This document shows positions 823 to 7,425 of a stretch of 33,295 nucleotides of DNA, one piece after another; within the stretch, counting starts at the first letter, position 1, and the number at the start of each line of letters is the position of its first letter. Origin of the DNA: Armatimonadota bacterium. Lineage in GTDB: Bacteria > Cloacimonadota > Cloacimonadia > Cloacimonadales > TCS61. Both the position numbers and the translations under genes were made by a program. The notes beneath the pieces are model-generated. The model did not search any database. It was not told the DNA's origin and saw only the letters and a program-made list of their open reading frames with translations. Location: contig JABMPU010000154.1 in assembly GCA_013203665.1 (NCBI GenBank), forward strand, positions 1 through 33,295, read 5' to 3'.

Positions 823-1552
823 CTTTGATTTTTTGAGACAGTTCATCAATTGTTAGATCAGTGGAAATAATACCATTTTTAGCAACAGAAATTCTCCCTG
901 TTTCCTCAGAAACAACAATAGCAAATGCATCGGATTTTTCTGTAATCCCAATCGCAGCTAGATGTCGAGTACCAAATTTTTGTGTATATCCGATATTTTC
1001 CGAAAGCGGTAGAACAACTTTTACAGCTAAAATTCTTTCTTTTCTGATGATAACAGCTCCATCGTGTAAAATTGTTTTACTATTAAAAATCGTGAGCAGT
1101 AATTTAGTGGAAATCCAGGCATCTATTGTTTCTCCGCTTTCAACGTAATCATCCAGTTTACCATTGTTTTCAATCACAATTAAAGCACCTATTTTCCGGA
1201 AAGACATAATCGAAACAGTATTGAGAAGACGAGAATAAATTTTCTTTTTTGTATCTTTAAAAACCGACATCAAATCCCGATTTCTGACTAACCTGGAAAA
1301 CAAATTCCGAATTTCAGGATGAAATATGATGATAAAAGCTATTACCCAGTAATCTTTTAAAAGTTTCAAAAATGAGGTCATCATAGACAAATTCAGAACT
1401 GAAGCTGTAAAATATAAAAGCAAAACCAATCCAAAACCAAGAATAACCTGAAAACCACCTGTTTTTTTAAGAAGAAATATCAGACGATATAATAAAAAGG
1501 AAACCATTAAGATATCGATCACATCGGTAATTTTGGGTATTAAAAAACTCAT
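809..1552 (-). CDS. cdaA: Membrane diadenylate cyclase (CdaA family)
   Basis: Makes cyclic di-AMP from two ATP at the inner membrane. Three hydrophobic segments (about residues 10-29, 35-58 and 64-78) precede a DisA_N/DAC domain. The catalytic DGA motif is in LHDGAVII (164-166), and the SEETGRISVA block is intact. The second signature motif, usually RHR in GTRHRAA, reads GTRHLAA here (196-198), so the second arginine is leucine. Length 247 is a little shorter than B. subtilis CdaA because the C-terminus is short. The ATG overlaps the folP stop by 4 nt (ATGA). In Firmicutes cdaA is usually followed by cdaR and glmM; neither is here, and coaE follows instead. Family assignment is firm; activity with the Leu variant is unverified. 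Confidence 0.9.
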   Translation of the reverse strand: MSFLIPKITDVIDILMVSFLLYRLIFLLKKTGGFQVILGFGLVLLLYFTASVLNLSMMTSFLKLLKDYWVIAFIIIFHPEIRNLFSRLVRNRDLMSVFKDTKKKIYSRLLNTVSIMSFRKIGALIVIENNGKLDDYVESGETIDAWISTKLLLTIFNSKTILHDGAVIIRKERILAVKVVLPLSENIGYTQKFGTRHLAAIGITEKSDAFAIVVSEETGRISVAKNGIISTDLTIDELSQKIKDETI

Positions 1553-2745
1553 ATTGCTTCACCTACTTTCTCTAAAGTTTGTAAAAGTTGTTTATGCTCT
1601 TTCACATCGTGAACTCTCACAAAATGGATATTATGCTGAAAAGCAAGAGCAGTTGCAGCCAAACTTCCTGCTAATCTTTCTTTGGGAGTTGAATCATAAA
1701 TTCTTCCAATAAAACTCTTTCGCGAAGCTCCTAACACAATTGGAACATTTAGACAATGAAATTCCATTATTTTTTTAAGAATGAGCAGATTATCAGAATG
1801 TCTTTTACCAAAACCAATTCCCGGATCGATCAGAATCCTTTCCTTTGAAATTCCATTCGAAATACAAAAATCAATTCTCTCTTTCAGGAAAGACAAAATC
1901 TCGCTGATTGTGTCTTGATAAAAAGGTTTTTTCTGCATTGTTCGAGGAGTTCCCTGCATATGCATCAAAATTATTGGAATATGTTTGTTTTTTTTTAGAA
2001 CTTTAATCATGGATTTATCAAATCGTAATGCACTGATATCGTTCACAATAGAAGCTCCAGCTTGAATGGCGGCTTCAGCGACATCTGCTTTATATGTATC
2101 TATTGAGATTGGAACTTTCCCAGATAATCTTTCTATTATTTGAATCACCCGTTGAATTTCTGTTTGTACACTAATTTCTTCTGCTCCGGGTCGGGTTGAT
2201 TCTCCACCAATATCAATGATATCTACTCCTTCATCAATCATTTTTAGAACGTGTTCTACTGCTTTGTCCGGATTTAAAAATTCATTTCCATCGGAAAAAC
2301 TATCGGGCGAAACATTCAGGACTCCAATAATCCTTATTTTATCAAGCAAGACTTCTTTTCCATTACAGTTTAGTATTCTGACTGATTTTTCTAAAATCTG
2401 CTCTAACGTTTTTTCCAGATCTGCTTTTATTTCTGAAAGACCAAAGATGGTTTGATATTCCAGTTTCTTAATTATTTTCTTTATTTTATCAGCATTTCCC
2501 ATAAGTATCACATCGCTGATTTTCTCTTTTCCTTCCACTACTCCGCGTGCTACAGCAGCATCTCCCCCAATGGAAAGCATTTCCTGCTTTAAAATATTGG
2601 CTGCTCCTAATTTTACGTTTTCCAATTTGATATTAAGACCAATCGCTTTAGGAGCCATCACTTGCACACCTTGAGATGAAACATTTATTTTGTTCAGCTC
2701 ACGTGTAGCTTCTTCGACATTTTGTATGTACAAAATTCTGTTCAT
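1549..2745 (-). CDS. folP: Dihydropteroate synthase with N-terminal extension
   Basis: Condenses 6-hydroxymethyl-7,8-dihydropterin pyrophosphate with p-aminobenzoate. The TIM-barrel domain starts near residue 138 and has all signatures: IIGVLNVSPDSFSDG, IDIGGESTRPGA, SIDTYK, NDISALR, ILMHMQGTP, DPGIGFGKR, GASRKSF and the final VRVHDV. Residues 1 to about 130 are an extra N-terminal domain (with LKQEMLSIGGDAA) not found in E. coli FolP (about 280 aa) but present in the long DHPS form of some thermophiles, clostridia and archaea. Its role is not known to me. The ATG at 2745 has an AAGGAG about 12 nt upstream, rather far. It is the first gene of the folP-cdaA-coaE set and reads away from the aro operon. 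Confidence 0.93.
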   Translation of the reverse strand: MNRILYIQNVEEATRELNKINVSSQGVQVMAPKAIGLNIKLENVKLGAANILKQEMLSIGGDAAVARGVVEGKEKISDVILMGNADKIKKIIKKLEYQTIFGLSEIKADLEKTLEQILEKSVRILNCNGKEVLLDKIRIIGVLNVSPDSFSDGNEFLNPDKAVEHVLKMIDEGVDIIDIGGESTRPGAEEISVQTEIQRVIQIIERLSGKVPISIDTYKADVAEAAIQAGASIVNDISALRFDKSMIKVLKKNKHIPIILMHMQGTPRTMQKKPFYQDTISEILSFLKERIDFCISNGISKERILIDPGIGFGKRHSDNLLILKKIMEFHCLNVPIVLGASRKSFIGRIYDSTPKERLAGSLAATALAFQHNIHFVRVHDVKEHKQLLQTLEKVGEAI

Positions 2746-2826: not shown

Positions 2827-3110
2827 AATTAGCCACTAAGAACACGAATGGACACGAAGAAGAGAAGAAGTAATAATAATCAAATCATAACAGCTTTTGC
2901 TTACCTTGAAAAGGTTCAAAAGATTTCTCTTCTTGCTGAACCTTTTCAACGGTCAAAATCTCAGATTAGTACCATAACCATTGAAAAGGTCTATTTGAAA
3001 GAATTCCTCTGTAAGTAAACCGTTTTCAAAGTAATCAATATCGGAAAGTTCATTTTTGCTTTTTATGATGATTTTTTTTTCGTGTTTCTTCGTGTTCTTA
3101 GTGGCTAATT
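2827..3110. mobile_element. Inverted-repeat element, MITE-like, no ORF
   Basis: The two ends are exact inverted copies for 22 nt (2827-2848 and 3089-3110). After a 3-nt mismatch on each side, 7 more nt match (2852-2858 and 3079-3085). The interior of about 220 bp has no coding sequence but contains a separate hairpin repeat (2904-2953). No target-site duplication is evident. The arm sequence (AGCCACTAAGAACACGAA type) belongs to a family seen singly at 7531, 9050, 31087 and 31706. It fills the divergent space between folP and the aro operon, so both promoters must lie in or beside it. It could be a decayed non-autonomous transposon or two inward-facing copies of a simple repeat. Confidence 0.55.
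2904..2953. repeat. 50-nt hairpin repeat, copy 1
   Basis: Perfect 13-bp arms at 2906-2918 and 2937-2949 enclose an 18-nt pyrimidine-rich loop containing TTCTCTTCTTGC. A second 50-nt copy lies at 31782-31831. The two copies differ by a few bases, and one difference in the stem is compensated on the opposite arm. Confidence 0.7.
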
Positions 3111-3129
3111 AAGTTTTATCTGAAAATCA

Positions 3130-3188: not shown

Positions 3189-4490
3189 ATGAAATCGAAT
3201 AGTTTTGACAGATATTTTGGAATCACAACTTTTGGTGAAAGTCACGGACCAGCAATCGGTGTTGTTATCGAAGATGTAAAACCCGGAATCGAGTTTCCAT
3301 TAAACGAAATCCAAAAAGCCCTCGATTCCAGAAAACCCGGGACAAGGCAATTCACATCCTCTCGCAAAGAAGAAGATAAAATCGTAATTCTTTCAGGAGT
3401 TTTTGAAGGTAAAACTACTGGCATGCCTATCTGTTTGGTGGTTTATAATAAAAATCATCGCTCCGAAGATTACGAACATTTGAAGAATCTTTTCCGTCCG
3501 GGACATGCAGATTACACATATTTCAAGAAATTTAAGATTTTTGATTATCGCGGTGGAGGAAGAGCTTCTGGAAGAGAAACTATTTCCAGAGTTGCAGCAT
3601 CCGGTTTGGTCGAAGATTTATTACATGATATTAATATCAATTGCTATCCAGTCCAAATTGGAAAAAACTTTGCAAAAAACTATGACCTGAATTTCCAGAA
3701 TGATCTCTATTGGCATGATAAAACAAACTTCGAAGAACTGCAAGATGACTTAGTTTCTATTCAGAAAAGAGGAGATTCTGTGGGTGGGATCGTGGAAGTT
3801 AAAATCGAAAATCTTCCTGCTGGTCTGGGAGATCCGGTTTTTGAAAAACTTGATGCAAACCTTGCCAAAGCAATACTTTCAATCGGTTCTGTAAAGGGAA
3901 TCGAATTCGGAGAAGGATTCAACCTGGCAAATCTTAAGGGCAATGAAGCAAATGATCAAATTAGTAAAAATGGTTTCTTGAGTAATCATTCCGGTGGAAT
4001 TCTGGGCGGAATCAGTACAGGGCAAAATCTCATTTTCAGATTCGTCATCAAACCTACTTCATCAATTAATATTCAACAAAGAACCATCACAAAAAAAGGA
4101 GAGGAAATTTCCTTCATATCAAAAGGACGGCATGATACATGTATAATTCCCAGAATTATTCCGGTGGCAAAAGCAATGATAAAATTAGTGCTTGCGGATG
4201 CTATCAGTTATCAGAAGCTCATTGAAAATCAATATCTCAATTTGCTGGATTATCGCGAAGCAATCGATAAAATTGATGGGGATATTTTAATTGCTCTTTA
4301 TCGCAGAAAAGAACTTTCTGAACTAATCGGGAAATTCAAAGAAGAAAAAAATATCGAAATTGTGGATTATGAACGGGAAAAAGAACTTCTAAAGAATCTT
4401 AGAAAGAAAGCAAAAACTTGGAAACTTGATGAAGATTTTATTGAAAATATCTGGAAAATGATAATTGCCGAAAGTAAGAAAAACCAATGA
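3189..4490 (+). CDS. aroC-aroQ: Bifunctional chorismate synthase - chorismate mutase
   Basis: Residues 1 to about 345 are chorismate synthase (EPSP to chorismate, FMN-dependent): GESHG at 16-20, RPGHADYTYFKKF, the FMN-site block DYRGGGRASGRETISRVA, and KGRHDTCIIPR. Residues about 352-433 are an AroQ-type chorismate mutase (chorismate to prephenate). This tail aligns without gaps to the E. coli P-protein mutase domain from Arg11 to Gln88 and keeps its active-site residues: Arg356, Arg373, Lys384, Asp393, Glu397, Ser429 and Gln433, the last residue. A TTG at 3144 would add 15 Lys-rich residues. The ATG at 3189 is preferred because AGGA lies 7 nt upstream and chorismate synthases begin this close to GESHG. 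The stop overlaps the next ATG (ATGA). Both domains look intact, so a two-step enzyme is a strong inference. Confidence 0.93.
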   Translation: MKSNSFDRYFGITTFGESHGPAIGVVIEDVKPGIEFPLNEIQKALDSRKPGTRQFTSSRKEEDKIVILSGVFEGKTTGMPICLVVYNKNHRSEDYEHLKNLFRPGHADYTYFKKFKIFDYRGGGRASGRETISRVAASGLVEDLLHDININCYPVQIGKNFAKNYDLNFQNDLYWHDKTNFEELQDDLVSIQKRGDSVGGIVEVKIENLPAGLGDPVFEKLDANLAKAILSIGSVKGIEFGEGFNLANLKGNEANDQISKNGFLSNHSGGILGGISTGQNLIFRFVIKPTSSINIQQRTITKKGEEISFISKGRHDTCIIPRIIPVAKAMIKLVLADAISYQKLIENQYLNLLDYREAIDKIDGDILIALYRRKELSELIGKFKEEKNIEIVDYEREKELLKNLRKKAKTWKLDEDFIENIWKMIIAESKKNQ

Positions 4491-5869
4491 TAATTTTATC
4501 AATTCCATTTTTAAATAAAAAATTTATTACAAAGCAAGTTACTGAATATCGAGATAAATTTGAATGGCTGGAATTCAGGTTGGATTTTCATTCTGATTTT
4601 GAAAAATTTCCTCAGAATTTAATTAATCAAGAAACTATAATTACAATTCGAGATGCTTCTAAAGAAGGAAAATATCCATCAAGCTTTTCCAATAAAATCT
4701 CGTTTTATAAGGAAATGATCTCAAAATATAATTGCCTGGTAGATTGTGAAATTGAACTCTACAAAAGGCAATTTTTACCAGCATCAAATCTCATTCTTTC
4801 TTATCATGATTTTGCAGAAAAAATTGATAATAAGAAATTGGAATATTTTATTAATATTTCAAATTCTATTCCTTCAAAATATCTAAAAATTGCTGTAAAC
4901 ATCAGTAATTATTCAGATTTCTCAAAAATGAAATTATTAATTTCTAACTCAAACAAACCGATTTTATTTGTTGGAATGGGAAAGCTGGGAAAAATCTCGC
5001 GTTGGTTGTATCCATTTTCAGGATCGATTGGAACTTATGTAGGGTTGTCTGAATTTCCCACTGCAAAAGGACAAATAACAATCGCTGAATCTGAAAAATT
5101 CAATTTGAAGAATATCAATATAAATTCAAAAATCGGAGGAATAATAGGAGGAAAACAGGTTGAAAAATCTCTGGGTTTGAAATTTTATAATCGCTATTTC
5201 AGAAAGAAAAATTTTAATGCAGTTTATCTTCCTTTTATTGTAGAAGATTTGAACGACTTTTGGAACTGGTTCGAATGGTCAAAAAAGAGATGTGAATTTT
5301 ACGGACTTACATTTACGATGCCATTCAAAACAATAATTGCCAAGAAATTACAATATCGTTTGCCTACTGCAAATCTCTATCTTCCAACCAAAAATGAGAT
5401 ATTTAACACTGATGCAACTGCGTTTCAAAAATCCGTCCAATATCTGAAAATAAAAAGTAGTGATAAGATCCTGATTTTTGGAAGCGGTTCAACTACAGAA
5501 ACTGCTCTTTTCTCTCTTGCCAAATTTAAGAATATTATAATTTCTGGAAGGAATACAAAGATAGGAAAGCTATTATCTTCTAAATATAATAATAAATTCA
5601 TTTCTTTGCAAAATGCAATAAATCTTACTTTTGATTTAATAATTAATTGCACTCCAATTGGAATGAATAATGAACATTTCTTTGAATCTACAAATCTTCA
5701 ATTTCCTATGAAAATCATTGACTTGCCATACTCTGATAAAAAAACTCCTCTTATTCAGAAATGTGAGGAAGAGAAAATTCCATTTGTAGATGGAAAGATG
5801 TTTTGGAAATGGCAAGCAGAAATTCAGTTAGAGAAGTTTTCGAAAATTTTTAATAAGAGAGAATCATGA
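4487..5869 (+). CDS. aroDE: Bifunctional 3-dehydroquinate dehydratase (type I) - shikimate dehydrogenase
   Basis: Residues 1 to about 208 are type I dehydroquinate dehydratase: WLEFRLD with Glu29, His107 in SYHDF, Schiff-base Lys134 in LKIAV, Arg172 in GKISR and Gln196 in TAKGQI. Residues about 214-460 are shikimate dehydrogenase: Lys281 in MPFK, Asn308-Asp309 in NTD, a degenerate dinucleotide loop GSGST (330s; usual GAGGA), INCTPIGM and Gln443 in KWQAE. The usual shikimate-binding HSxSP reads roughly KSLGL, so one serine is lost. Together the halves convert 3-dehydroquinate to shikimate. The order matches the plant DHQ-SDH fusion. It overlaps aroC-aroQ by 4 nt and the next gene by 4 nt, so the operon is translationally coupled. 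The divergent dehydrogenase motifs make cofactor preference uncertain. Confidence 0.9.
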   Translation: MIILSIPFLNKKFITKQVTEYRDKFEWLEFRLDFHSDFEKFPQNLINQETIITIRDASKEGKYPSSFSNKISFYKEMISKYNCLVDCEIELYKRQFLPASNLILSYHDFAEKIDNKKLEYFINISNSIPSKYLKIAVNISNYSDFSKMKLLISNSNKPILFVGMGKLGKISRWLYPFSGSIGTYVGLSEFPTAKGQITIAESEKFNLKNININSKIGGIIGGKQVEKSLGLKFYNRYFRKKNFNAVYLPFIVEDLNDFWNWFEWSKKRCEFYGLTFTMPFKTIIAKKLQYRLPTANLYLPTKNEIFNTDATAFQKSVQYLKIKSSDKILIFGSGSTTETALFSLAKFKNIIISGRNTKIGKLLSSKYNNKFISLQNAINLTFDLIINCTPIGMNNEHFFESTNLQFPMKIIDLPYSDKKTPLIQKCEEEKIPFVDGKMFWKWQAEIQLEKFSKIFNKRES

Positions 5870-7425
5870 AAAAAATATTAAACCTTTTTTGGATTGGTAT
5901 TTTGTTGATTTTATTATCCTGCACAGTAACTCATTATTCAGATAGTATTTCACAAACTTTAAAAGATGCAGGAAATAACAAAAAAGAAATTAAAAAAGCG
6001 ATCTCCTATTTTCAAGTAAAGGAAGATTCATTACAATTGAATGCACTCTATTTTATTTTGGAAAATCTGAAAAATCATTGTTATGTGGAATTCGCTCTTT
6101 ACGATTCCAATAAAGTGGAAATTCCCTTTAATATTTTGGATTATAAAAATTATGATGAAACGATTCTAGCACTCGATAGTTTGGAAGAAATAAATGGTGA
6201 ATTGAATTGGAAACGGAAAAAAAAGTCGGAGGATATTGAAACTATAACTTCAGAGCTTCTGATCGAAAATATTGAGCTGGCATTCAAAGCCTGGCAGCAA
6301 AAATCCTGGGCAAAAGATTTTTCTTATGATGAATTTCGAGAATACATTTTGCCTTATCGTGGAAGTAGTGAACCGCTGGAAAGCTGGCGTCCGTTTTTCC
6401 TGGAAAGATATGAAAATCTATCCGAAGAAATGAATGATCCAACTGATCCAATCGAAGCAGCCAGGCTGATAAATGAAGATGTAAAAAGCTTATTCGGTTT
6501 TGATGCTAGATTTTATTGTCATCCAACAGATCAGGGATTATCTGAAATGCTGAAAAATGAACTTGGTCGCTGCGAAGATATGACCAATTTCACGATTTAT
6601 GCACTGCGAGCAAACGCTCTCCCTATTACCAGCGATTACACTCCTCATTGGGCAGATACAGGAAATAATCATGCCTGGAATACAATCATCATGCCCGGAG
6701 GAAAAGCTGTTCCATTTATGGGAGCAGAAGCAAATCCCGGTGATTACAATTTGCATCATAAACTTGCAAAAGCTTATCGCAAAACTTTTTCTGAACAAAA
6801 AGATAATCTTGCTTTCAAACTAAATGAAGGTGAAAAAGCTCCTCCTTGGCTTACCGGTAAAAATTATCTCGATGTGACTCCAACCTACACAGAAATCTCT
6901 GATGTTACTTTAAAAATCAATTATGATATTCCGGATAGTACGAGATTTGCTTATCTTTGCGTTTTCAATGCAGGTGAATGGAAGGCAATTCATTGGGGAA
7001 AAATTAATTCTTTAAATAATGTTACATTTGATAAAATGGGTGTTGATATTGCTTATCTTCCCATGTTTTATGTAAATAAAGAACTCATTTCTGCAGGTTT
7101 TGCTTTCATTCTGGAAAATGATGGAACTCTGAGAGAATTAAATAAAAGTGAAACAACAAAAAATCTCAAATTAATCTCAGTTACAAAAAAGACCATCAAG
7201 CAGGCAACAGAAAATAAAGAGATTATTTTCTTAGATGAAGATGCTGAATATGAACTTTTCTTTTGGGAAGATGAATGGATATCTTTGGGAGAAAAAAACT
7301 GCAACGTAGAACCACTATTATTTGAAGATGTGCCGTCAAACTGTCTTTACTGGCTTGTTAAGAAAGATTCAAGAAAAGAAGAACGGATTTTTACTTATGA
7401 AAATGGAAATCAGGTTTGGTGGTAA
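5866..7425 (+). CDS. Lipoprotein with transglutaminase-like domain
   Basis: The N-terminus is a lipoprotein signal with lipobox LLSC and acylated Cys19. After an alpha-helical region (about 30-210) comes a transglutaminase/protease-like core: Cys236 in GRCEDM, His269 in NNHAWN, and a following acidic residue in the MGAEANPGD stretch, the Cys-His-Asp arrangement of this superfamily. The C-terminal part (about 315-519) looks beta-rich, as in similar Bacteroidetes transglutaminase-domain lipoproteins. The substrate is unknown; peptidase or cross-linking activity on the cell surface or in the periplasm is possible. The ATG overlaps the aroDE stop by 4 nt, so it is transcribed with two aromatic-biosynthesis enzymes although no metabolic link is apparent. 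Confidence 0.82.
   Translation: MKKILNLFWIGILLILLSCTVTHYSDSISQTLKDAGNNKKEIKKAISYFQVKEDSLQLNALYFILENLKNHCYVEFALYDSNKVEIPFNILDYKNYDETILALDSLEEINGELNWKRKKKSEDIETITSELLIENIELAFKAWQQKSWAKDFSYDEFREYILPYRGSSEPLESWRPFFLERYENLSEEMNDPTDPIEAARLINEDVKSLFGFDARFYCHPTDQGLSEMLKNELGRCEDMTNFTIYALRANALPITSDYTPHWADTGNNHAWNTIIMPGGKAVPFMGAEANPGDYNLHHKLAKAYRKTFSEQKDNLAFKLNEGEKAPPWLTGKNYLDVTPTYTEISDVTLKINYDIPDSTRFAYLCVFNAGEWKAIHWGKINSLNNVTFDKMGVDIAYLPMFYVNKELISAGFAFILENDGTLRELNKSETTKNLKLISVTKKTIKQATENKEIIFLDEDAEYELFFWEDEWISLGEKNCNVEPLLFEDVPSNCLYWLVKKDSRKEERIFTYENGNQVWW

Follow-up and report, generated by a model that had tools for sequence, protein, structure and literature searches.

Why should a chorismate synthase run on into a chorismate mutase, and what would a cell do with the prephenate that such a protein makes? 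The question is raised by a single gene in a stretch of 33,295 nucleotides (hereafter the window) from a bacterium deposited as a member of the Armatimonadota and placed by its genome in the Cloacimonadota. The gene and its surroundings contain the following features:

1549-2745, minus strand: dihydropteroate synthase, identified by Pfam, with about 140 residues preceding the Pfam domain.
3189-4490, plus strand: aroC-aroQ fusion gene, an open frame of 433 residues plus stop with two Pfam domains above cut-off.
3216-4205, plus strand: chorismate synthase half, residues 10-339 (PF01264, 404.7 bits; TIGR00033, 381.6 bits).
4224-4241, plus strand: linker, residues 346-351, placed from the secondary structure of the predicted model.
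4251-4487, plus strand: AroQ chorismate mutase half, residues 355-433 (PF01817; ungapped alignment with E. coli PheA; fold match to 1ecm).
4487-5869, plus strand: aroD-aroE fusion (PF01487 and PF08501 above cut-off), overlapping the aroC-aroQ stop by four bases.
5866-7425, plus strand: transglutaminase-core protein with a lipoprotein-like start, found after aroDE here and in two other loci (L036 and L033).

The fusion frame runs from ATG to TGA without internal stops, and its start at 3189 agrees with the N-terminus common to its relatives. In the first half, the Chorismate_synt match exceeds its cut-off of 27 bits many times over and covers positions 1-326 of the 327 in the profile, which corresponds to a complete AroC; TIGR00033, with a cut-off of 212.2 bits, likewise assigns this half to the full-length AroC family. 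In the second half, the CM_2 profile (PF01817) scores 69.4 bits against a cut-off of 27 and is matched from position 1 to 79 of 80. Between Arg11 and Gln88 the E. coli PheA mutase aligns with it without a single gap (26 of 78 residues identical), and all seven residues R11, R28, K39, D48, E52, S84 and Q88 have their counterparts, so that it belongs to the CM_2 family both by profile score and by its E. coli-type catalytic residues. The original prediction had described one frame with a complete chorismate synthase and an AroQ mutase, aligned without gaps and with the seven catalytic residues conserved; the Pfam matches, the open frame and the PheA alignment bear this out.

Among the NCBIfam matches listed, no mutase sub-family model scored over its cut-off, the best being the archaeal chorismate mutase TIGR01791 with 46.8 of the 66.95 bits needed. 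Pfam gives only PF01264 and PF01817 in the chain, and the prephenate dehydratase or dehydrogenase domain of a P- or T-protein is absent from it. The identity of an isochorismate-pyruvate lyase (PchB) was considered and rejected (NF005475, 34.6 of 126 bits; the genome lacks a Chorismate_bind match). The fused mutase is the sole CM_2 match in the window genome.

The structure was predicted with 39 relatives as input (mean pLDDT 83.5, pTM 0.81), and confidence is low at residues 1-7, 105-118 and 122-124 of the AroC half. The last AroC helix (320-345) is followed by a linker of about 6 residues and by three mutase helices (352-387, 394-410 and 415-432). Residues 350-433 of the model superpose on residues 5-88 of 1ecm_A over 84 residues (Z 12.7, rmsd 1.1 A), and the AroC half matches solved chorismate synthases with a best Z of 30.6. 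On these sequence and model comparisons, the window gene very probably encodes a bifunctional AroC/AroQ enzyme, in which the AroC half would turn EPSP into chorismate and the AroQ half would turn chorismate into prephenate.

The gene beside the fusion was tested in 10 of 11 loci of relatives (in L104 it lies next but one). In 8 of these 10 it matches the dehydroquinase family above cut-off and also the N-terminal family of shikimate dehydrogenase, the latter below cut-off in L114. In L106 and L110, which belong to family f10, the neighbour has no aroD or aroE family match at E 0.001, and in L103 a different gene follows the fusion. The pairing of the fusion with aroD-aroE is therefore common, not universal; in some f10 loci the adjacent gene is either too diverged to be recognised or a different gene altogether.

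Several other observations concern the same region. An inverted repeat lies upstream of the fusion (2822-2861 and 3076-3115), with 40-base arms that are 85% complementary and 214 bases apart; its core of 20 exact bases is found nowhere else in the window. The dihydropteroate synthase is as long as its relatives in L033 and L036, and the window genome has this enzyme but no Chorismate_bind match of PabB type. An Rfam scan of the window gave no matches at gathering scores.

The survey set consisted of 124 genomes of the Cloacimonadota. AroC was matched in 57 of them and CM_2 in 58, and in 56 of the 57 AroC-bearing genomes AroC continues in frame into the mutase, although some of these fusions are cut by contig ends (such as those of G016, G101, G004 and G024) and AroC of G013 lies in two separate frames. 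A frameshift or stop between the halves, which would have counted against the original prediction, is absent from the frame; since the same in-frame join recurs in 56 of the 57, chance and assembly error, whether chimera or frameshift, are excluded. An alignment was made of 49 sequences from the 56 fused genomes, and 48 of them (all but G016, which is cut by a contig end) were placed in a tree, where they form one clade with support of 99/89. Among five close pairs tried, dN/dS could be computed for four and was 0.096-0.14 in AroC and 0.079-0.199 in the mutase. The single clade and the low dN/dS therefore indicate that the join arose once, as far as the tree shows, and that both halves are under purifying selection.

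R11 and R28 are conserved in all 49 aligned fused proteins and K39 in 48, the remaining one being cut by a contig end. Gln88 behaves differently. Its counterpart, Gln433, is indeed the last residue of the window protein, as first described, but the dependence on the extreme C-terminus is not general: the Gln occurs in 32 of the 49 (two of which are cut by contig ends) and in none of the 10 from family f10. The fused mutases of that family (L101, L106-L115) stop about seven residues early, lacking a Gln88 counterpart.

One genome, G035, is the exception to the join. Here aroC, of 332 aa, and the mutase, of 91 aa, are separate genes with a 14-base overlap, in a run (L116:1729-7405) that comprises aroDE, DAHP synthase, aroB, EPSP synthase, aroC and mutase. 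The G035 AroC is very divergent and sits outside the fused clade on a very long branch, which makes its placement unsure. The unfused state may be ancestral, or it may stem from replacement or fission. Another genome, G044, has a lone mutase of 87 residues (L117:6192-6455) directly after a long helicase-like gene; it has two U32 matches and neither an AroC nor an AroB match.

A scan for relatives found 9 loci. Six match AroC and mutase, five of them titled Candidatus Cloacimonadota and one Armatimonadota (L032, whose fusion is 86% identical to that of the window); three Bacteroidota loci match the AroC half only. The scan detects close relatives only, and independent fusions in other phyla may exist. 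The join had been put forward as unlike known AroQ fusions, and in keeping with this, the portions seen of the literature that we found on such fusions, including PMC4921024, PMC11237513 and PMC1173090, name no AroC-mutase fusion.

If the enzyme makes prephenate, the next matter is what consumes it. Prephenate dehydratase was found in only one of the 124 genomes (G038, not the window genome), although the same search was positive in all 14 control genomes. The G038 hit is a mutase-prephenate dehydratase gene (L118:2500-3564). Its contig has a G+C content of 50.3%, and three other contigs of the same bin have 30.7-33.4%; the contig is thus probably a contaminant. Prephenate dehydrogenase was matched above cut-off in none of the 124 genomes (two matches were weak), although this search was positive in 13 of the 14 controls. 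The original prediction that the fusion commits chorismate to phenylalanine and tyrosine is not supported by the window genome, where neither enzyme was found.

Other users of chorismate are few. The Chorismate_bind family, which comprises the anthranilate, aminodeoxychorismate and isochorismate synthases (TrpE/PabB-type), occurs in 7 of the 124 genomes, the window genome not among them. Five of these seven have AroC, so that free chorismate must be available there. Upstream in the pathway, DHQ synthase (AroB) was found in 57 of the 124 genomes; these include the window genome, whose AroB protein scores 267.3 bits against a model cut-off of 305. Both AroC and AroB are present in 46 genomes; 11 have AroC without AroB, and 11 the reverse. 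CmoA was tried as a user of prephenate and set aside: it had no match above cut-off in the 124 genomes and sub-threshold matches in 60, in a search that exceeded its cut-off in one of 14 controls, E. coli being the kind of genome expected to be positive. The consumers of chorismate and prephenate covered by these searches were prephenate dehydratase, prephenate dehydrogenase, the Chorismate_bind family and CmoA. Because the standard dehydratase and dehydrogenase are absent and chorismate users are few, prephenate looks like the end product of the pathway, and within the families searched it probably is. With so few chorismate users left, nothing would oppose linking the last two steps in one chain.

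The fusion may instead serve ordinary synthesis of phenylalanine and tyrosine through other enzymes, for example a PheC-type cyclohexadienyl dehydratase or enzymes as yet unknown. These amino acids are the commonest fate of prephenate, and enzymes of PheC type do exist, some of them fused to chorismate mutase according to the part of PMC4921024 at hand. We nevertheless regard this explanation as unlikely, since both standard families are missing under searches that recover them in almost every control, and since it leaves unexplained the co-occurrence of AroC with another protein family, U32.

Two U32 proteins of E. coli, TrhP and RlhA, require prephenate for the hydroxylation of tRNA and rRNA, as reported in the portion seen of PMC6599085, which leaves open the role of prephenate in the reaction. 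The window genome has two U32 proteins, of 400 and 683 residues, both encoded outside the window. The former shares 38% identity with E. coli TrhP over 410 columns and conserves E162, C170 and C177, which the same portion of PMC6599085 gives as essential in TrhP; its best model is that of TrhP (NF011996), for which it reaches 391.5 of 534 bits and so stays below the cut-off. For the latter, alignment with RlhA over 351 columns gives 30% identity. All of the 30 best U32 loci, and all 14 further loci examined, retain the key Glu and both Cys.

U32 proteins occur in 69 of the 124 genomes, and their distribution follows that of AroC closely. Both are present in 56 genomes, AroC only in 1, U32 only in 13 and neither in 54 (Fisher p 2e-21, a kind of value that shared ancestry inflates). 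The sole genome with AroC only, G054, is 64% complete. Among the 70 better genomes, defined by completeness of 90% or more and contamination of 5% or less, both are present in 39, AroC only in none, U32 only in 3 and neither in 28. With an RpoB tree covering 67 of these 70, a model of dependent gain and loss beats the independent one (LR 30.7, p 3.5e-6), in a test that is generous when events are few. A stricter test, by independent pairs, was less decisive. In the 67 better genomes, four pairs differ in AroC; U32 changes the same way in 1-2 of them and is unchanged in the rest, which is not significant. In a tree of 108 rows, which included one wrong-frame row (G067), there are 11 such pairs, with U32 changing the same way in 2-5, the opposite way in none or rarely one, and unchanged in the rest, again not significant. 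RpoB itself was matched in 109 of the 124 genomes, and G093 was omitted from the 108 because of a split stretch in its 1842-aa frame. Few independent gains and losses thus lie behind the correlation.

The three good genomes that have U32 without AroC are G008, G044 and G090. The first two also lack AroB. G090 has AroB and sits among fusion-bearing relatives, so that its missing AroC is likely a gap.

A second alternative supposes that operon neighbours were fused and fixed once, with no special meaning, and that the correlation with U32 arises because genomes in some families have been reduced in general. The separate, overlapping aroC and mutase genes of G035 speak for such a history, the independent gains and losses are few, and the U32 correlation stands without an unrelated control family. 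A neutral fusion leaves unexplained, however, why genomes that lack the standard phenylalanine and tyrosine enzymes should retain the pathway, and none of the 39 better genomes with AroC lacks U32; we therefore consider this improbable, more so than the amino-acid route. That the AroQ half serves to regulate or dimerise AroC and is not a catalyst is hardly credible: AroQ-like domains can regulate DAHP synthases, which gives a precedent, and Gln88 is absent in some relatives, but this half is the only mutase found in the window genome, and the invariance of R11, R28 and, but for the truncated sequence, K39 speaks for catalysis.

The best explanation, and one toward which the comparisons lean to a moderate degree, would be a bifunctional enzyme that makes prephenate mainly for U32 proteins related to TrhP and RlhA. 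These proteins would use it to hydroxylate pyrimidines of tRNA or rRNA without oxygen, and we rate it as somewhat probable that they are the main user of prephenate. A broader proposal, which we hold to be evenly balanced between true and false, is that the shikimate pathway of the Cloacimonadota is no longer an amino-acid route: it may have been cut down to prephenate, with its last two steps fused, and U32 proteins may use prephenate as a cofactor or oxygen source when they hydroxylate RNA anaerobically. No title or abstract found on Cloacimonadota with chorismate or auxotrophy, or on prephenate with RNA hydroxylation, describes a pathway of this kind.

A large part of the phylum apparently retains the pathway while lacking the usual phenylalanine and tyrosine enzymes. 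If U32 proteins are the users, the role of prephenate in RNA hydroxylation would here be separated from amino-acid synthesis, and these organisms would offer a simple system in which to learn what prephenate does in hydroxylation. Moreover, the mutase sits on the enzyme that produces its own substrate, which makes the protein a natural case for asking whether a fusion channels chorismate.

In the AroQ fusions known to us, the partner of the mutase either opens the pathway or acts directly after prephenate. The P- and T-proteins of E. coli (AroQ-PheA and AroQ-TyrA) have the same AroQ fold and catalytic residues as the window protein, and are likewise fused to a neighbouring pathway enzyme; their partner uses prephenate and their mutase is N-terminal, whereas in the window protein the mutase is C-terminal and its partner produces chorismate. 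The DAHP synthase-mutase fusions of Bacillus, Geobacillus and Porphyromonas also place AroQ on a shikimate enzyme, and two structures (5j6f and 5gmu) match the mutase half; there the partner catalyses the first step of the pathway, in the window protein the last. The 'bifunctional' chorismate synthases of fungi and M. tuberculosis (1r52, 1ztb) are AroC enzymes, as here, but the term refers to a flavin reductase activity and not to a mutase domain. In the chorismate mutase/cyclohexadienyl dehydratase proteins (8cq3, 8cq6; PMC4921024, in the part at hand), the mutase is joined to an adjacent step, as in the present case, although the dehydratase comes after the mutase step and belongs to a family unlike AroC. 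Like E. coli, the window genome has one U32 protein resembling TrhP and another resembling RlhA, with the key Glu and both Cys retained; in E. coli, prephenate also feeds phenylalanine, tyrosine and CmoA, users not found in the window genome.
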